Position numbers and translations under genes: made by a program. Under the pieces are notes generated by a model. That model was not told the DNA's origin, made no database searches, and saw only the letters and a list, made by a program, of their open reading frames with translations. From Methanomicrobiaceae archaeon (GTDB lineage: Archaea; Halobacteriota; Methanomicrobia; Methanomicrobiales; Methanomicrobiaceae), in assembly GCA_029762625.1 (NCBI GenBank), contig JARVGI010000007.1, forward strand, positions 1 to 64,000: 64,000 nt of DNA, read 5' to 3'. This document shows positions 27,304-36,338 of this stretch, one piece after another (position 1 is the first letter of the stretch; each line of letters begins with the position of its first letter).

Positions 27304-28260
27304 GTGGACCTGGACAAGGTGACGCGGACGATGGGGCCGGTGGAAGGCCTCCCGGTCATCGTGCAGGGCGACAATGTCCTCGGCCTCGATACGATCCGGT
27401 GGATGCACGAATTTCAGGAGTATGAACTGAGCCACAACAGCATGGTTTCCGGATCGGTGAGCATCGCTAACTTCGTCCTGCAGCACAACGGCGGGCGGAT
27501 GCCGCAGACCGACGCCGAGCTGGACAGAATTCTCGCCATGATCCCGGAGGAGACACGACAGCGGTATACCCGCGGCAATGGCGAGGCGGTGATCGAGTTC
27601 GCTATCATGAACATGGAAAACGAGGCTGCGATGTCCTTCGTCGACCAGATGAAAAAGGAGATTGCATGGATGCCGCCCCCTCCCGGCGTGACCGCCACCA
27701 TCACCGGCCCCGGGGAGATGTTTACCAACCTGATCACCGAGATCCGCGAGGGCAAGGCCTTCATGACCCTGCTCGGCTTCGGGCTTATCTTCGGGTTCCT
27801 CCTGCTGGTGTTCCGGAATGCGGGGAGAGCGGCAACACCGCTCATCCCCATCGGCCTGATCGTGGGCTGGAACGGGCTGGTCATGTTCGTGCTGGGTATC
27901 GACTACACCCCCATGACCGCCACGCTGGGATCCATGACCATCGGCGTGGCCTCGGAGTACACCATCCTGATCCTGGAGCGCTGCCATGAGGAGCTCGAAC
28001 GCGGCCTGCCGCTCGTGGAGGCCATACGCCAGAGCGTCCAGAAGATCGGCACCGCCATCACCGTCTCGGGGCTGACCACGATCTTCGGGTTCTCGGCGCT
28101 AATGCTCTCCTCGTTCGGCATCGTCAGCAACTTCGGGATTCTCACGGTCATCTCCGTGGGATTCGCCCTGCTGGGCGCCATCATCATCATGCCCGCGGTG
28201 CTCGTCATCGCCGGCTCATTCCGCGAACTCGGACGGCGGGCCCCCCTCGCCCGCCCCTGA
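27304..28260 (+). pseudogene. RND-superfamily exporter (HAE3/MmpL-like), 5' half missing
   Basis: A 318-aa frame corresponding to the C-terminal part of a two-lobed RND transporter: a periplasmic-type loop region (residues 1-130), then about six membrane helices from GKAFMTLLGFGLIFGFLLLV to LLGAIIIMPAVLVIAG, with the conserved GIDYTPMTATLGSMTIGVASEY and SGLTTIFGFSALMLSS segments. Full-length members have about 750-800 aa with a first TM-loop-TM half. No ribosome site precedes GTG 27304, and the homologous sequence starts within a few bases of where the PAS gene ends. It is therefore a 5'-truncated fragment, probably non-functional. Confidence 0.75.
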
Positions 28261-28296: not shown

Positions 28297-29064
28297 TTAC
28301 CGCCCGCAGCGGTCGAGCACCGCTGCGGCGAGGCCTCGCACCGCCGCAAGGGCACCGCTCCCTTCGCCGACCCATGCCACCGGCGCCCCCCGCAGGTCCG
28401 CGTCCTCCACCGCGGCGTCCTCGGGGATTGCGGCCAGCAGGGGGAGCCCCTCTCCTGAGAGGTCCTCTGCAGGGGCTTTTTCCCCTTTGCACCGGTTGAT
28501 AACGAGATACATGGGCGTCTTTCCGAGGCCGAGCGATACCGCGAGGTCACGGATCCGCCGCGCCGTGCGCAGTCCCCGCATGCCGGGGTCACTGACGATG
28601 AGCAGGATATCGGGACGCCGGACGGTGCCACGGGAGATGTGCTCGAGGCCGGCCTCCGAATCGACGACGGTGATGGGGTAGTCCTCCCCGAGGAGGTGCA
28701 TGCACTCTCCCAGAAGGGAGTTCGGAAAACAGTAGCAGCCCGTTCCCTCAGGCCGGCCCATGGCGAGGAGATCGAAGCCCTCCGCCTCCACGAGGACCTT
28801 CCGGAAGCGGTATTTGATGTACGAGGTGCGGTCCATCCCGGGGGGGATGCTCCGGGTGAACGCCTCCTCCCGCATCCACCCGAGCGTCTCAGCCAGATCC
28901 ACGCCCAGCGCCTCGTGGAGGTTGGCGTTGGGGTCCGCGTCGACGGCGAGCACGGGCCTCGCCCCCGCCTCAAGAAACGACCGGACGAGCAGGCCCGAGA
29001 TGGTGGTCTTGCCGGTCCCCCCCTTCCCGCAGACCACGATGGTGCACGTTCTGTTCACGCCCAT
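28297..29064 (-). CDS. cooC: CooC/AcsF-type nickel-insertion ATPase
   Basis: MinD/SIMIBI-class ATPase of 255 aa that loads nickel into CODH/ACS metal centres. The deviant Walker A is KGGTGKT (residues 14-20), the switch region contains DADPNANLHEALG, and the metal-binding CxC is Cys110-x-Cys112 (GTGCYCF). The open frame starts at 29196 but homology starts at MGVNRTCTIVVCGKGG, so ATG 29064 is chosen; it overlaps the upstream methyltransferase stop by 10 bp. As the last gene of the acs operon it presumably serves the adjacent AcsB. Confidence 0.88.
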   Translation of the reverse strand: MGVNRTCTIVVCGKGGTGKTTISGLLVRSFLEAGARPVLAVDADPNANLHEALGVDLAETLGWMREEAFTRSIPPGMDRTSYIKYRFRKVLVEAEGFDLLAMGRPEGTGCYCFPNSLLGECMHLLGEDYPITVVDSEAGLEHISRGTVRRPDILLIVSDPGMRGLRTARRIRDLAVSLGLGKTPMYLVINRCKGEKAPAEDLSGEGLPLLAAIPEDAAVEDADLRGAPVAWVGEGSGALAAVRGLAAAVLDRCGR

Positions 29065-30089
29065 TCCTCCCGTGCCCGGCGCGAAAGGTCGGCGGCAGTA
29101 CCCATGATCGCTCCCGCCCCCCGCTCGTCGGCGAACCGGATCCCGCAGGTCGGCGTGATCATCGACTGGCGGGCGAAGAGTTCCGGGTCGAGCCACGAAC
29201 AGACCTCATCCCGGATGGCGCTCATGCGGGTATAGAGCGAATCCGGGGTTTCTTCTTCATAGACATCATACTCCGCTGGCACGATGCCCCAGGCGACCAC
29301 GCCTCCCGCCTCCATGAACCGGGCGATCGCATCGCGGTAGAGCAGGAATTCCCTGGCGTACCGGTAGGCATCGAGGGAGACGAACCCGATATCCATGCCG
29401 AGCACGAAGGCCCAGTCGGTATTGGAGCAGCAGTGGACCCCTATACCCCCCTCCAGCAGCGTTGCGGTCTCTTCGAACCCTGCCGCCACCAGGTCGCGGT
29501 TCACCGGGATGACCGACGAGCCGAAGGCGGCGAGGTAGGGTTCGTTGAGCACCACGAGGGTGTGCGGCGCCCCGGTCCGCGCAATCAGCCGCTCCTCGTA
29601 CCACCGGGCTCGCAGCGCGATCATCTTGTTGAGCAGGTCCGCGTATTCGGGGTCGTAGTGGAGCGGGCGTTTCTCCCGGTCGACCACCTGCATGCCGAAG
29701 GTCAGGGGCCCGGTGACCTGCGCCTTGGCGAACAGCGCCCCCGAGAGATCGCATTCCAGCATCGCAAGAAAGCCTGAATTATACTCCTCCGACGCACCGT
29801 ACGCCGCGAAATTCCCCTCCATGTAGTCGAGCATGATCTGCTCCATCTGGCCTGAATGGTCCGCGGCGGTATCCGCGAACAATTTTTCGCCCTCAACCAC
29901 CGCACCCGGCAGGTGTTCGGCGTCGTTGAAGACGATCGCCTCCCGCGGCCCCCGGTTGGGCAGGGTGGGGGCATAGGGAACCTCCGGGAAACTCTCCAGC
30001 ACCGCCCTGCAGGCGGCCCCCGGGTCGGTGTGGGGAAGCCCGCCCACGCCGGTGGCGGCAAGGCGCGGCGGGGGAAGGAGCGATGCCAT
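29055..30089 (-). CDS. Core MetE-like methyltransferase (corrinoid-dependent methionine synthase, MesB-like)
   Basis: A 344-aa UROD/MetE-superfamily protein lacking the N-terminal duplication of bacterial MetE. Zinc ligands fit His219, Cys221 (HCC at 219-221) and Cys315 (TPTCG); other signature segments are GVGGLPHTDPGAA, FNDAEHLPG, KAQVTGPLTFG and LNEPYLAAFGS. Published work on core-MetE from Dehalococcoides shows a methyl-corrinoid iron-sulfur protein as methyl donor. Here it overlaps acsV (ATGA) and lies in the operon with acsC/acsD, so it probably takes a methyl group from that protein to homocysteine. The translated frame extends far upstream, but that part is antisense to the real acsV reading; ATG 30089 is the start. 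Confidence 0.75.
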   Translation of the reverse strand: MASLLPPPRLAATGVGGLPHTDPGAACRAVLESFPEVPYAPTLPNRGPREAIVFNDAEHLPGAVVEGEKLFADTAADHSGQMEQIMLDYMEGNFAAYGASEEYNSGFLAMLECDLSGALFAKAQVTGPLTFGMQVVDREKRPLHYDPEYADLLNKMIALRARWYEERLIARTGAPHTLVVLNEPYLAAFGSSVIPVNRDLVAAGFEETATLLEGGIGVHCCSNTDWAFVLGMDIGFVSLDAYRYAREFLLYRDAIARFMEAGGVVAWGIVPAEYDVYEEETPDSLYTRMSAIRDEVCSWLDPELFARQSMITPTCGIRFADERGAGAIMGTAADLSRRAREEWA

Positions 30090-31999
30090 CACTCCACCCC
30101 CCCGTAGCGGATGCGGCACTCGTCGAGCACCCGCTGCACCCCCGGAAAGAGGGAGAGATCGGTGTGGGGCAGAAAGCAGCTGGAGGTGTACTGGTCCATG
30201 AAGGAGGGTTCCGCATTGAGCTCGATATAGGTGATCTGCTGGGCGATGCGGTCGAGGTTGCGGCGGCGCTCGCGGCTGATGAGGGCGAGATTGGCCCCCG
30301 TGATGGCTCCGTTGCCGATGTTTTTCACCGCGTCGAGGGGGACTTCCGGGATGAGGCCGACGGCGATGGCGTTCTCCTTGTTCAGGTAGTTGCCGAACGC
30401 GCCGGAGAAGTAGATGGCGGCGATGTCCTCCCGCGTGATCCCGGCGGCGTCCATCAGGGTCATGCAAGCGCCAAGGATCGCCGCTTTGCTCATGATCAGG
30501 TTTTTGATGTCGTTTTCGGTGATCACGATATCCCGCTCGCCATCCGTCTCGTCGGCCCAGGCGATCACGAACTCGGGGAAATAGCGGCCCTGCCGGACCC
30601 GCGGGTGCCTGATACCCATATTGATGTGCCCGTTGCGGTCGATGACGCAGGCGCGGATGAGCTCTGCAAGCAGATCGATGAGCCCCGAACCGCAGATGCC
30701 TTTGGGCCTGATGCGGTTGATGGTCTCGTAGGTGGGCTTGAGGGTGCCGCCGTCGATGCGGACCTTCTCCATCGCTCCCGGGTTTGCCCGCATCCCGAAG
30801 AGCACCTCGCCGCCCTCGAGAGCCGGGCCGGCGGCACCGGCGCAGGAGAGCATCCAGTCGCTGTTGCCGAGCACCACCTCGAAATTGGTGCCGATATCGA
30901 TTAAAAGGGAGATCTCCTCCCGCTCGGTTATCCCGCAGGCAAGGATGTCGGCGATGATGTCCCCCCCGATGAAGTTGGAGACCGCGGGGAAGGTATAAAC
31001 CCCCGCATTGCGATGTACGGCGAGACCGATCCTGCCTGCCGCCGTTGAGAGCATCCGGCGGACCACCGGCACGTAGGGCTCGGCGATCATGTACCCCGGA
31101 TCGATGCAGAGCAGGAGGTGGGTCATCACCGTGTTGCCGGCGACGACCACCTCGTGGATGTCCTCCCGGTCGATCCCGGCATTGTTCGCCGCTTCGGTGA
31201 GGGCCTGGTTGATGCTCTCGGCGGCGAGTCGCTGCAGTCTGGACAGGCCGTTTTTCCGGGCGAAGTTGACCCGGGAGAGGATGTCCTCGCCGTACCCGAT
31301 CTGCCGGTTGTAGTTGGATGCGGTGGCGATCACGGATGCGGTGGCGAGATCCCAGAGGTACACGACGATGGTGGTCGTGCCGAGATCGACCGCCGCCCCG
31401 TAGAGGCGCCCCTCGGTGTTGCCCTCCTCGACCTTGATGAGGCGATAACCTCCGGGGACCAGCGCGACGGTGCCGGTGACGCGCCAGATCCCCTGCCGCA
31501 GCAGCTGGGGAACGGAGCGGAGCACCTCGAGGGGGGCGTAGATCTTGTTCGCGGCAGGACCGCCCCGCGTCTCGATCCCCTCCAGCAGGCGGGTGATATC
31601 GGGGGTGGTGTCGGTGAGCGAGGGCGGGTTGAGCTCGAGGTAGTACTTCCTGACGGAGGGGCGGAACGGGATCTCCGCCGCACGAGCCTCGATGAGGATC
31701 TTCTGCTCCTGCACGAGCGAGGATTCCGGCACCTCCACGCGCAGGTCGTTTCTCACGAGCGACTGGCACGCGAGGCACGCCCCGCGGTCCAGCTCCTCCG
31801 CGGTGAAAAAGTTCCCGAACTTCTCCCGGTCAAAGGTGATCTTTCCGCTTTTTACGTATACCACACACTTTCCGCACCGGCCCTGCCCCCCGCAGACCAC
31901 GTTCATGTGCAGCCCGGCGCGCTGGGCGGCATCGAGGATGGTGGCCCCCCGGGGGACGTCGGCTTTGTGAAAACCGGGCAGAAAGGTGACCGTGGGCAT
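30089..31999 (-). CDS. acsV: Reductive activator of corrinoid Fe-S protein (RACo/AcsV-like, ASKHA domain)
   Basis: A 636-aa two-part protein. Residues 1-90 form a plant-type [2Fe-2S] ferredoxin with Cys36, Cys42, Cys45 and Cys75 or Cys78 (VCGGQGRCGKC...CLAC); the C-terminal half (about 210-636) is an ASKHA ATPase (AVDLGTTTIVVYLWD, VVAGNTVMTHLL, FIGGDIIADILAC, DIGTNFEVVLG). Such proteins use ATP to re-reduce inactive Co(II) in the corrinoid protein. ATG 31999 follows GGAGGCC and sits one base beyond the acsC stop; its own stop overlaps the next gene. Context with acsC/acsD makes this role very likely. Confidence 0.88.
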   Translation of the reverse strand: MPTVTFLPGFHKADVPRGATILDAAQRAGLHMNVVCGGQGRCGKCVVYVKSGKITFDREKFGNFFTAEELDRGACLACQSLVRNDLRVEVPESSLVQEQKILIEARAAEIPFRPSVRKYYLELNPPSLTDTTPDITRLLEGIETRGGPAANKIYAPLEVLRSVPQLLRQGIWRVTGTVALVPGGYRLIKVEEGNTEGRLYGAAVDLGTTTIVVYLWDLATASVIATASNYNRQIGYGEDILSRVNFARKNGLSRLQRLAAESINQALTEAANNAGIDREDIHEVVVAGNTVMTHLLLCIDPGYMIAEPYVPVVRRMLSTAAGRIGLAVHRNAGVYTFPAVSNFIGGDIIADILACGITEREEISLLIDIGTNFEVVLGNSDWMLSCAGAAGPALEGGEVLFGMRANPGAMEKVRIDGGTLKPTYETINRIRPKGICGSGLIDLLAELIRACVIDRNGHINMGIRHPRVRQGRYFPEFVIAWADETDGERDIVITENDIKNLIMSKAAILGACMTLMDAAGITREDIAAIYFSGAFGNYLNKENAIAVGLIPEVPLDAVKNIGNGAITGANLALISRERRRNLDRIAQQITYIELNAEPSFMDQYTSSCFLPHTDLSLFPGVQRVLDECRIRYGGVE

Positions 32000-32000
32000 A

Positions 32001-33335
32001 TCAGGCCTCCCACCCGGTCTCCAGGTACTCGCCGATCTCGGCCGCATCGCGCGGGCCCACCCGCACCTCCCAGCCCGTCTCCTCCTCGATCTTGCCGCTC
32101 AGCGGGGCCGCGTAACCGGGGATGATCAGGATCCGGTGATCGACCCGGTTCTCCAGATCGGTCTTTTTGATCGCGTCCGCCACCACCGTCTCGGTAAGCT
32201 TGCCGCCGGCAACGGCGGTGAGCACGGACATGCCCTCCGTGTCCACGATGAAGAGATAGCAGGGGATGCCCGCCGCCTCGAGGTAGCCGAGGAGGGTGAA
32301 GTAGGTGAGGGAGAAATTGACGGTCATCAGCACGGGGGCGCTGCCGGTCGGGGCATTGACCGGGTAGAGCCCCGGGGTCACCTGGATGGGCTTCTGCGGA
32401 TCGGTGTAGATATTCTGGCGGAGGGTGAGGGCTGCCATCGTGGACGAGGGGGCGAGCTCGTCGATGATGATGACCCCGGCATATTTCAGGATCCCGAGCG
32501 CCGTCGCAGCGTCGGGCAGATCGATCGGCACGGTATCGAAGACCACCGGGTAGCCGAGATCGGGATCGGTGCGCTCCACCGCACGCCTGCGTATCTCGAC
32601 CGACCGGACGAGGAAGTCGCGCAAGGTGGCGGGAGCGGGGTCGAGCATCAGGTTCTCGATGCCGCGGTCCCTGCACAGCCCCACGAGGCGTTTGAGTTCC
32701 TCGAGGTCGCCTGCCCGCACCGCCAGCGCACAGCCGTATTTTCTGGCGAGATCGCACATCGCCTCGACGGTGTCGGCACATGCCGCGTGGATGAGCGGCT
32801 GGAAGTTGCCGCAGTGGGCGAGCGCCGCCGCCTGCGCCTCCGGGTCGTCGGCGATGACCACCTCGGGGAGGCTCGCGCACGCCTCCACCATCCCGACAAC
32901 CCCGCCGAATTGGTCCGCATCGCCCGACTCGCAGCGGAACGCAATGCCGTCGACGGAGAGATCCTCCCCGACACGGTGGAAGGTCTCGTCACGCACCCGC
33001 GTCATGATCCTCTCGATCCGCTCCCCGGGCCATGTATCGGCAACCTGCATCATCAGCCCGGGCTGGTGGTAGAACGTCCGCTCGTGGCGGTAGAGCACGA
33101 ACTCCTCGCCCACGGCAAACGACCGCTCCCCCGCGCCGATGCCAACCAGCCGGATGGGGGGGCGGGTGGCCCCGCCCAGCAGCTCCCGCGTCTGCTCGTC
33201 GAGGTCGGGGCAGAGGTCCACGTCCACCTTGCCCGAAGCAAGTTTCATGGCAAATGCGAGGCAGGTGGGAAACCCGCATTTCTTGCAGTTGGTTTTGGGG
33301 AGTAACTTGTAGATATCAAGCGCTTTCATCGCCAT
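32001..33335 (-). CDS. acsC: Corrinoid iron-sulfur protein large subunit
   Basis: A 444-aa subunit. Its N-terminal 4Fe-4S motif is Cys17, Cys20, Cys25 and Cys42 (TNCKKCGFPTC...LCPDL); the middle TIM barrel and C-terminal corrinoid domain (PNAPTGSAPVLMTVNFSLTYFTLLGYLE, SVLTAVAGGKLTE) follow. It carries the cobamide that receives the methyl group from methyl-H4MPT and gives it to ACS. The ATG 33335 with AGGAGG six bases upstream is chosen (a second Met follows two residues later). The 5' end overlaps acsD by 20 bp. In archaeal nomenclature this is CdhE. Confidence 0.9.
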   Translation of the reverse strand: MAMKALDIYKLLPKTNCKKCGFPTCLAFAMKLASGKVDVDLCPDLDEQTRELLGGATRPPIRLVGIGAGERSFAVGEEFVLYRHERTFYHQPGLMMQVADTWPGERIERIMTRVRDETFHRVGEDLSVDGIAFRCESGDADQFGGVVGMVEACASLPEVVIADDPEAQAAALAHCGNFQPLIHAACADTVEAMCDLARKYGCALAVRAGDLEELKRLVGLCRDRGIENLMLDPAPATLRDFLVRSVEIRRRAVERTDPDLGYPVVFDTVPIDLPDAATALGILKYAGVIIIDELAPSSTMAALTLRQNIYTDPQKPIQVTPGLYPVNAPTGSAPVLMTVNFSLTYFTLLGYLEAAGIPCYLFIVDTEGMSVLTAVAGGKLTETVVADAIKKTDLENRVDHRILIIPGYAAPLSGKIEEETGWEVRVGPRDAAEIGEYLETGWEA

Positions 33336-34293
33336 AAGCTTCCTCCTGTGGATGGGATCCTTCCTGAAGCGCCGGGAGCGCCTCCCGCAACAGCGCCACC
33401 GTGCCGGGGTGGCGGACGCACACGATCTCCGCCCCCGCGACGAGCGCGGAAAACGCCGCATAAAATTCCCAGCGGATCGCCACCTCGTCCGCCGTCTCCG
33501 GATCCGCCTCACGCACCTCCTTGACATTGAGGGAATCGATGGCAGAACTGATCATGGGGCGGGCGAGATCGGCGTCCCCCTGCAGGGCGACTGAGCGGAT
33601 GCGCTCCATCACCGAGTAGGAGTACTCGAAACCGTAGCCCAGGGTCCCGGTATACGGGTCGATGACGATCCTCTCCGGGGGAAGTCCCGTTTCATGCAGC
33701 AGGATGTTGAGCTGCTTTGCCAGGTTGATGTCGATGGGCGTCTGGGCGACCAAGGCGTGCCCGTAGGCGAGCGCCGATGCCGCCACGCTGCGGTAGCGGT
33801 CGGCTTCCGCGGTCCCGAGCAGGATCCGTTCGCCTTCCGCGGCCTCCCCGATCCGCCGGTAGACCTCCGAATCGATGCCCGGCTCGGTGCTCCCCTCGAC
33901 GATCAGGGGGTACTTCGTCGCCCCGATCACCTCCTCCATCGTGGTGCCCAGCGAGGCGAAATCGTCGAACCCCCGCTGCCGTGTGCTGGTAAAGAAGAGG
34001 CGCACCATATCCGCGCCGAATGTCGTCTCGGCCGCCGCAGCCCATGCACCCGTATCCCCCGCGAGATCCCCGACCTCGCGGAGCACGATCGGCGACCACG
34101 TGCGGGTATCGTCGCAGATTTCAAGGGCGATGCGAGGTGGGTGGCCCGCGGCGGGCCCCGCGCCGAGAAACGGGAACGTACCCGCGCCCCCCACCGTATA
34201 CACGCGTTCCCGCGTCCCTCCCTCCGCCGTGGTCGCTCCAAGGCTGACCTCCAGGATCCGGTTGCCCTGTTCCGGATTGTGCTCTTCACTCAT
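33316..34293 (-). CDS. acsD: Corrinoid iron-sulfur protein small subunit
   Basis: A 325-aa TIM-barrel protein (RIALEICDDTRTWSPIVLREV, FTSTRQRGFDDFASLG, GEAAEGERILLGTAEADRYR, DPYTGTLGYGFEYSYSVMERIR). With acsC it makes the methyl-carrying heterodimer. Length fits the bacterial small subunit (about 310-325 aa) rather than the longer archaeal CdhD (about 430 aa), which is a further hint of a bacterial-type operon. Located 14 bp after acsB and overlapping acsC by 20 bp. Confidence 0.9.
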   Translation of the reverse strand: MSEEHNPEQGNRILEVSLGATTAEGGTRERVYTVGGAGTFPFLGAGPAAGHPPRIALEICDDTRTWSPIVLREVGDLAGDTGAWAAAAETTFGADMVRLFFTSTRQRGFDDFASLGTTMEEVIGATKYPLIVEGSTEPGIDSEVYRRIGEAAEGERILLGTAEADRYRSVAASALAYGHALVAQTPIDINLAKQLNILLHETGLPPERIVIDPYTGTLGYGFEYSYSVMERIRSVALQGDADLARPMISSAIDSLNVKEVREADPETADEVAIRWEFYAAFSALVAGAEIVCVRHPGTVALLREALPALQEGSHPQEEAYGDESA

Positions 34294-34307
34294 GTGCCCA
34301 TCCTCTC

Positions 34308-36338
34308 CTAAATAAGGGGCCGCATCGCGAGGGCGGGATGATCCACCCGCGCCAGGAATTCGGCCAGATCCTCGATGCTCACGGCGACCGTCTCGTCGGC
34401 GATTTTGTCGAACAATTCAGGAATGCTCATCCGTTCGAGCTTCTCCTCGAGCCGGCCCTTCAATTCGTCCTTGAGAAGCGACGGCATCCAGACCACCCGC
34501 TCGATCCCGTTCTCCGCCTGCAGGAACCGGTCGCTGAGGATATAGCCCTTCGAGATTCCCACGAACCCGGGGGTCTGGGCTCCCCCGCCGATGGTGCCGG
34601 CGAGAGTGGAGAAGGTCATGCCCAGCGGCGTGTCGCCGAGGTAATCGCGGTTGACGATCATGATCCCGTTCACCTCGGGCAGGATCGTGGCGATGCACTC
34701 GAAACACCCGCAGCAGGTCATCGGCTCATCCATCATCCCGTAGAGGGAGACACGGTCCACCGCGCCGTGCGAGGCTTTCTTCACGAAGCGGTTCACCCCC
34801 TCGAACTGACCGAGGACGGGATCGATCAGCTCGCCCTTCTCCACGGGCTGGTTGGCACCTGCGGGCGCGATCTCGTAGGCAATTTTCGCATCCAGCCAGG
34901 TGATGGCACCGCAGAGGGCGGGGCGTTCGGGGGTGATGATGCAGACGTGGTTGGGGGCAAATGTCTGGCAGAGGGTGCAGGAGTAGTAGGTCCCGACATC
35001 CTCGTCCTTCATGCCCGCGATGCGCTCATCGCGCTCGTCGTAGATGGCCCGGGCCTCCTCGAGCATCGCCTCCACGCGCTCCCGGTCCGTCACCAGCGTT
35101 ACCTGCACGGCATCGATCAGGTCGGGAAACTCCATGCGGAACTTGCTCGCGAGCAGCCTGCCCAGGTCTGCGATCGCCACGCCCCGCCGGACCACGTCTT
35201 TCGTAAGCCGGACCCAGACGAGGTCGCGCTGGGCGACATGCCACGACCCCTCCCCGTAGTTGAGGAACGTGTGGATCCTGCGCTCAAGGACCGGTTCGTA
35301 ATCCTTCTTCATCGATGCGCCGGCCACGTCCACGAGAATGGCCAGCGGCACCGCCGACCCTTCTTCGAGGTCGCCCACCTCCGGGCCGATCACCTCGACG
35401 CGGCCGTCCTCCACCTCGTCCGCGGGCCGCACGCGGAGGAGTTCGAATGCAGGCGCCTTCGCCCCCCCGAATTCCACGTACATCTCCTCTTTCCGTATAC
35501 TCTTTCCCTCGAACGCCGGGGAGCAGGCCATGGGAATCGGGATGGCGACCACGTTGACCCGGATCCCGCGCCGCTCCATCCCTTCCCGCACCGCGTCGAG
35601 GTAGGGGACGCGGATCCACTCCCCCCCTTCATAGCCCTCCGGGGTGAGGATGGGGATGCTCAGCACCCGGAGACCGTCGATGACCGCGATCTCCTCGTCC
35701 TCGAGGCCCGGAAAGGCAATCACGAATGCTTTCGCCCGTTCGGCGGCGTAATTGAGCAGGCGGTCCGCATCCCCGGGCTGAACGCCCCCGAACATCATGG
35801 CCACGCGGGCGATGATATCGGCGAAATGAATCGCCGCCATGCCGGTGGAGCCAAGGGGGACGAGGCGGTACTCGAGCCCCACCTTCACCCCCGCCTCGGT
35901 CAGGGTTTGGATCACCCCGCCTGCGAGGAAGGTGAGCAGGTACTTCTCCTGCATCTCCCGGCAGATGGCGGCGGCCGCATCGGCGTCATCCGGCGATCCG
36001 GCAACGAGACCGATCCCGGCGATACTGCCGTCCACCAGCGAATACCCGAGCCTGCGCAGCACCGTATCGGGCACAAACCCGGTGTAGGGCTCCCCTTCCT
36101 CCCCTCCGGCGGCATACCCCGCCGCCGCAAGACACTCTCCCGCCACGAGCACGCTGGATCCCGAAGCGGCGTATGCCTCACGTGCGCTTCCCGCGTCATG
36201 CACCGCCATGCCGGTGACGGCATAGGTCACGGGGAGCGCATATGCCGTCTCATCATACCCGATACTCCCTTCCAGCGCGGCCATTTCCTCATCGAGACGC
36301 TCCCGGCCCGATATAAGACTCTCATCAATCGGCGTCAT
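34308..36338 (-). CDS. acsB: Acetyl-CoA synthase, bacterial-type full-length subunit
   Basis: Joins a methyl group, CO and CoA to acetyl-CoA (reversibly). At 676 aa it includes the N-terminal domain (1 to about 260) that binds CODH in Moorella and that archaeal CdhC (about 470 aa) lacks. Cluster A ligands are visible: Cys454, Cys457, Cys466, Cys476 and Cys543-Gly544-Cys545 (SCTLCQTFAPNHVC, ALCG, TCCGCFEC); each is exactly 52 residues below the Moorella positions 506, 509, 518, 528, 595, 597 as I know them. The start ATG 36338 has no strong ribosome site. It is the first gene of the operon; no CODH subunit is adjacent. Confidence 0.92.
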   Translation of the reverse strand: MTPIDESLISGRERLDEEMAALEGSIGYDETAYALPVTYAVTGMAVHDAGSAREAYAASGSSVLVAGECLAAAGYAAGGEEGEPYTGFVPDTVLRRLGYSLVDGSIAGIGLVAGSPDDADAAAAICREMQEKYLLTFLAGGVIQTLTEAGVKVGLEYRLVPLGSTGMAAIHFADIIARVAMMFGGVQPGDADRLLNYAAERAKAFVIAFPGLEDEEIAVIDGLRVLSIPILTPEGYEGGEWIRVPYLDAVREGMERRGIRVNVVAIPIPMACSPAFEGKSIRKEEMYVEFGGAKAPAFELLRVRPADEVEDGRVEVIGPEVGDLEEGSAVPLAILVDVAGASMKKDYEPVLERRIHTFLNYGEGSWHVAQRDLVWVRLTKDVVRRGVAIADLGRLLASKFRMEFPDLIDAVQVTLVTDRERVEAMLEEARAIYDERDERIAGMKDEDVGTYYSCTLCQTFAPNHVCIITPERPALCGAITWLDAKIAYEIAPAGANQPVEKGELIDPVLGQFEGVNRFVKKASHGAVDRVSLYGMMDEPMTCCGCFECIATILPEVNGIMIVNRDYLGDTPLGMTFSTLAGTIGGGAQTPGFVGISKGYILSDRFLQAENGIERVVWMPSLLKDELKGRLEEKLERMSIPELFDKIADETVAVSIEDLAEFLARVDHPALAMRPLI

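Follow-up and report, generated by a model that had tools for sequence, protein, structure and literature searches.

A bacterial-type acetyl-CoA synthase operon of Methanomicrobiales, probably uncoupled from carbon monoxide dehydrogenase and linked to methionine synthesis

In acetyl-CoA synthases (ACS, AcsB) coupled to carbon monoxide dehydrogenase (CODH), a channel in the N-terminal domain conducts CO to the A-cluster, and the association of CODH and ACS in one complex is commonly explained by this tunnel. We describe here a six-gene operon, acsB-acsD-acsC-acsV-mesB-cooC, from a Methanomicrobiaceae archaeon (GCA_029762625.1, genome G000), located in a 64,000-nucleotide stretch of DNA (contig JARVGI010000007.1, positions 1–64,000), hereafter referred to as the window. 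The operon probably encodes an ACS that is uncoupled from CODH and wired to methionine synthesis via a shared corrinoid protein.

In Dehalococcoides mccartyi the Wood-Ljungdahl pathway is incomplete: AcsB cleaves acetyl-CoA and CO leaves the cell (PMC7005905), and the methyl group is thought to move from AcsCD to core-MetE without CODH (PMC7005905, PMC7857596). The operon resembles this system in combining AcsB, a corrinoid iron-sulfur protein and a MesB-type synthase with the same zinc-ligand spacing, with no obligate CODH. However, its host is an archaeon with methyl-tetrahydromethanopterin (methyl-H4MPT) and a second methionine synthase, and the genes form one six-gene operon with acsV and cooC. 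Furthermore, a pathway of this type would be expected in a genome with no CODH, but G000 has CooS; ten other genomes of the order are CODH-free. The tunnel substitutions reported below are described for the Methanomicrobiales AcsB.

With the class 1 bacterial CODH/ACS of Moorella thermoacetica and Carboxydothermus hydrogenoformans, the operon shares a three-domain AcsB, the A-cluster ligands, four of five alcove residues, the corrinoid iron-sulfur protein and AcsV. It differs from class 1 in having no adjacent acsA and no acsE, in the filled A222 and A265 positions and in a shortened N-terminal domain; unlike in CODH/ACS complexes, the CODH gene is neither adjacent to acsB nor its constant companion. 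The archaeal acetyl-CoA decarbonylase/synthase (ACDS, CdhABCDE) performs the same chemistry and is carried additionally by some relatives, but CdhC has no N-terminal domain of this kind and branches in a clade of its own, and cdhA and cdhB are absent from G000. The presence of mesB beside acsCD in methanogens has already been noted (Price et al. 2021, PMC7857596); these clusters are extended here to 113 genomes with AcsB, and the excerpts of that paper available to us discuss neither the CO tunnel nor CODH independence. A literature search without key subscription papers found no published account of the tunnel substitutions or of the CODH independence of this ACS.

The operon, its acetyl-CoA synthase and its methionine synthase

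The operon lies on the minus strand (36338–28297) and consists of the following genes:

acsB, 34308..36338, minus strand: bacterial-type acetyl-CoA synthase, 676 amino acids (aa) (NF040764, alignments, tree)
Residues of AcsB: A-cluster C454, C457, C466, C476, C543 and C545; tunnel I176 (Moorella A222) and V219 (A265); alcove Y99 (I146)
acsD, 33316..34293, minus strand: corrinoid iron-sulfur protein small subunit, 325 aa (PF03599; NF003376, 323 bits, cut-off 280)
acsC, 32001..33335, minus strand: corrinoid iron-sulfur protein large subunit, 444 aa (NF003195, 534 bits, cut-off 306; PF04060)
acsV, 30089..31999, minus strand: corrinoid reductive activator (RACo/ASKHA and 2Fe-2S domain), ATG at 31999 (PF14574, PF17651, PF17650, PF00111)
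mesB, 29055..30089, minus strand: core methionine synthase, 344 aa (zinc-ligand spacing, predicted fold)
cooC, 28297..29058, minus strand: CooC/AcsF-type P-loop ATPase for nickel insertion, starting with GTG at 29058 (PF01656/MinD-like matches)

The profile searches agreed with the preliminary description of this DNA in gene order, strand, sizes (including the 325 aa of AcsD) and identities. AcsC carries an Fe-S motif at its N-terminus, and AcsV scored 569 bits against NF040756, under the cut-off of 800 for that model. The acsV–mesB and mesB–cooC junctions overlap by a few bases, and purine-rich Shine-Dalgarno-like stretches precede most of the starts. All 20 related loci that were read were syntenic, with cooC in place after mesB in 19 of them.

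AcsB matched the bacterial three-domain alpha/beta model NF040764 over residues 18–676 (904 bits, cut-off 800). The six A-cluster cysteines are invariant and align with those of the C. hydrogenoformans enzyme, and the offset of 52 to the Moorella numbering, given for them in the preliminary description, also places Moorella F512 on F460. We inferred a tree of AcsB and CdhC from the shared catalytic core, with eight CdhC sequences from the same order and few bacteria sampled. The Methanomicrobiales AcsB sequences formed one clade (95/99) with a long stem, on the bacterial side of a branch with 100/100 support that separated them from CdhC, and the window AcsB was nested within this clade, beside Methanoculleus-type sequences. 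AcsB is thus of the bacterial type on both the NCBIfam cut-off and the tree, and it does not nest with archaeal CdhC, the placement that had been named as refuting this assignment.

MesB matched nothing in Pfam or NCBIfam at E ≤ 1e-3, and a PDB sequence search was of no use. Nevertheless, the top 18 Foldseek matches of its AlphaFold model (predicted local distance difference test score, 87) were all methionine synthases (MetE; E 6.8e-07). The protein has the MetE catalytic-domain fold without the folate domain, at 344 aa where about 340 aa are expected, and H219, C221, D240 and C315, invariant in 17 sequences, have the same spacing as the zinc ligands H215, C217, D236 and C312 of the D. mccartyi core-MetE. 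Given the fold matches and this spacing, the gene previously listed as core metE is best named mesB. Homologues in Carboxydocella and a relative scored 143–178 bits. On the contig of the window, but beyond the window itself, a second such enzyme is encoded at G000:C26:83203-84057. It is MesA-like (147 bits to PF01717), and G000 therefore has two kinds of core methionine synthase.

Next to the operon, on the plus strand (27304–28260), there is a 318-aa frame of an MMPL/RND-type transporter with partial family length, whose start faces that of a PAS-domain gene. This frame may be what is left of a transporter gene that has lost its N-terminal part.

Tunnel residues and the distribution of CODH

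Moorella A222 and A265 (A225 and A268 in C. hydrogenoformans) line the CO channel. That larger residues would block it is drawn from three sources. The A222L and A265M substitutions reportedly block the tunnel of the Moorella enzyme. Engineered variants at these positions are found in the PDB, where the entry titles name A225L and A268M (8cmw, 8cja and 8cjb, with A225L in 8cmw and A268M in 8cjb). Finally, according to one sentence on earlier work in PMC12289521, blocking of the tunnel does not stop ACS from capturing CO.

The positions were matched through the Moorella numbering in 88 Methanomicrobiales AcsB sequences. The A222 position was occupied by isoleucine (54), leucine (27) or valine (7) and never by alanine, and the A265 position by F, L, V, I, M or Y in 80 sequences and by A, S or C in the other eight; the window AcsB has I176 and V219. 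Among the five alcove residues named in PMC11321310, I146 was replaced with tyrosine in all 88 sequences, and G145, V149, F229 and F512 were retained. The stretch between TAYxLP and TGF comprised 51–56 residues in the Methanomicrobiales sequences with a clear reading, against 72–75 in all the CODH-coupled enzymes sampled, and 18–22 residues of the N-terminal domain were missing in all of these sequences. The N-terminal domain described earlier as retained is therefore present, but it is shorter and changed at the tunnel positions. A222 is kept in Moorella, C. hydrogenoformans, four Bacillota loci, a CODH-AcsB fusion and C. autoethanogenum, and a CODH gene lies upstream of acsB in Carboxydocella and in the Bacillota locus examined. 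A tunnel change shared with the rerouted class of C. autoethanogenum was considered, but that enzyme has alanine at the A222 position. In the AlphaFold model of AcsB (predicted template modelling score, 0.59) the domains are placed with uncertainty, and the reasoning on the tunnel makes no use of it. We infer from the alignments that the tunnel is probably closed and that AcsB probably forms no complex with CODH.

A natural CODH-ACS fusion was observed in the Halobacteriota family f7, in which a CooS-type CODH and a full-length AcsB are encoded by a single open reading frame (ORF) of 1377–1395 aa. The genes acsD and acsC come next, and cooC and acsV are close by:

L154:6167-10297, minus strand: CODH-AcsB fusion ORF
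L155:5247-9377, minus strand: CODH-AcsB fusion ORF
L156:5591-9775, plus strand: CODH-AcsB fusion ORF

The comparison of Methanomicrobiales genomes proposed in the preliminary description revealed a full-length AcsB in 113 of 232. Within family f1, AcsB was confined to the genus of the window organism, and when the phylum was sampled evenly, the AcsB N-terminal domain turned up in only one other family. Co-occurrence was counted in genomes at least 90% complete, 63 with AcsB and 72 without. AcsB and MesB occurred together in 63 of 63, with no discordant genome. CooS was present in 39 of the AcsB-positive and 47 of the AcsB-negative genomes; its occurrence is independent of AcsB. Neither CooS nor CdhA was found in ten of the 63, and a recheck of these ten with PF03063 at E ≤ 1 yielded no match above the cut-off other than hybrid cluster proteins, which are about 540 aa long. 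Of the ten genomes, G056 (1.98 Mb) is the only one assembled as a single contig. Five changes in the presence or absence of CODH were counted on the AcsB tree (21 sampled sequences), and in many genera it is mesB, not CODH, that the operon has retained. The nearest operon-bearing relative is G098 (a metagenome-assembled genome, MAG, labelled Methanoculleus sp. SpSt-1212), which belongs to the same genus and has a 96% identical AcsB; neither CooS nor CdhA was found in this incomplete MAG. In G099, another incomplete MAG of the genus, CooS was present and AcsB was not found.

Two types of CooS, about 34–35% identical, occur in Methanomicrobiales (loci L158, L166 and L169 versus L001), and the Methanoculleus-type genomes with AcsB have the second type only.

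Weighing the explanations

We consider it rather probable that the operon encodes an ACS uncoupled from CODH and serving methionine synthesis. AcsB would interconvert acetyl-CoA with CoA, CO and a methyl group, AcsC and AcsD would hold the methyl group on the corrinoid, AcsV would re-reduce inactive cobalt and CooC would load nickel. MesB would transfer the methyl group from methyl-AcsCD to homocysteine, as its sequence and gene context suggest. CO would be exchanged with the solution, not through a tunnel to a docked CODH, and where the cell has CooS or CdhA these could make or remove CO at a distance. The earlier suggestion that the system may work without CODH is strengthened by the tunnel substitutions and by the co-occurrence pattern. 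The host differs from Dehalococcoides in having methyl-H4MPT available and a MesA-like synthase, and the net flow may therefore run either way. We lean slightly towards reversible exchange of methyl groups, with acetyl-CoA (derived from acetate) and methyl-corrinoid each buffering the other; net formation of acetyl-CoA from free CO is about as likely.

Several observations weigh against an uncoupled ACS. G000 itself encodes a CooS of 652 aa at G000:C27:35380-37338 (TIGR01702, 689 bits, cut-off 478), and the next gene codes for a second CooC. This is the sole Prismane/CODH match above the cut-off in the genome and lies on another contig, outside the window. The window thus lacks CODH catalytic and CdhB genes, as first described, but an absence of CODH from this genome must be rejected; the description "without CODH" stands only in the wider sense, for G098 and nine more genomes at least 90% complete. 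A link in some species is hinted at by G156, G211 and G219, where the operon has a cooS-cooC pair about 2 kb downstream. The CODH-fused AcsB also has isoleucine at the A265 position, so this position alone is not diagnostic, and its value as a stand-alone marker of uncoupling is weakened. The co-occurrence of AcsB and MesB could reflect one operon lost or gained as a block, and the linkage is partly structural because the genes of an operon are gained and lost together. The absence of a gene from MAGs is never certain. Finally, methanogens are rich in methyl-H4MPT and G000 has the MesA-like synthase besides MesB, so the reason for a second methionine route is hard to see.

A bactofilin-like membrane gene is present between the ACS operon and the cooS-cooC pair in all three neighbour genomes (L057:8938-9945, L059:13595-14701 and L061:5202-6287).

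The alternative that survives best is an ordinary bacterial-type CODH/ACS with a moved CODH gene, in which the CooS of contig C27 would dock on AcsB to form acetyl-CoA from CO2, with MesB as a side branch. We regard this as unlikely. The high-scoring CooS and second CooC of G000 and the cooS-cooC pairs of G156, G211 and G219 are in its favour, but the A222 position is bulky in every member, with the same kind of tunnel substitutions in these three genomes, where the bactofilin-like gene separates the operon's cooC from cooS. Furthermore, CooS occurs independently of AcsB, and the congeners G098 and G099 each have only one of the two.

A methionine-only decarbonylase, as proposed for Dehalococcoides, appears improbable. 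AcsB would then only cleave, the methyl group of acetyl-CoA would pass to methionine and CO would be waste. The D. mccartyi parts list is identical (AcsB, AcsCD and core-MetE, no CODH needed; PMC7005905) and the AcsB-MesB linkage is strict. However, D. mccartyi has no route to methyl-tetrahydrofolate, whereas the methanogen has methyl-H4MPT and G000 a MesA-like enzyme, and the CO-concentrating alcove residues are mostly retained.

It is very improbable that this lineage acquired the operon recently from a bacterium. AcsB lies with the bacterial AcsB sequences, not with CdhC, and, in family f1, is known from this genus only, but it falls inside a single clade found in nearly half of the Methanomicrobiales genomes, and the GC (guanine plus cytosine) content of the operon (65–68%) is close to that of the window (63%). 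The closest named bacterial AcsB found was about 47% identical, in a genome scan dominated by Methanomicrobiales in which the class of the sole named bacterial centre comprised four genomes only; any transfer would therefore be old. The transfer considered plausible in the preliminary description is thus possible, but not as a recent event.

It is hardly credible that a cdhA/cdhB complex was missed in an assembly gap: the assembly (2.2 Mb) is in 28 contigs, but it is 99.8% complete, a genome-wide profile search found neither gene anywhere in it, and the other listed genomes of family f1 lack cdhA as well.

Implications for methyl-group metabolism

We tentatively propose, as a possibility a little short of even, that these enzymes are a vertically maintained class of ACS in Methanomicrobiales, with a sealed tunnel, free CO or no net use of CO, and a role as an acetyl-CoA/methionine methyl exchanger; in species such as G056 it would be the sole Wood-Ljungdahl-type CO-handling nickel enzyme. 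If true, this would be a large natural family in which the A-cluster is kept, the tunnel is filled and the evolutionary partner is a methionine synthase rather than CODH, and ACS could be selected for a purpose other than CO2 fixation. The finding suggests that an ancient carbon-fixing enzyme has been re-wired for methyl-group exchange in many hydrogen-using methanogens, and it is relevant to acetate assimilation in Methanomicrobiales, to the pathway of Dehalococcoides and to the question whether free CO was the starting point of ACS chemistry.

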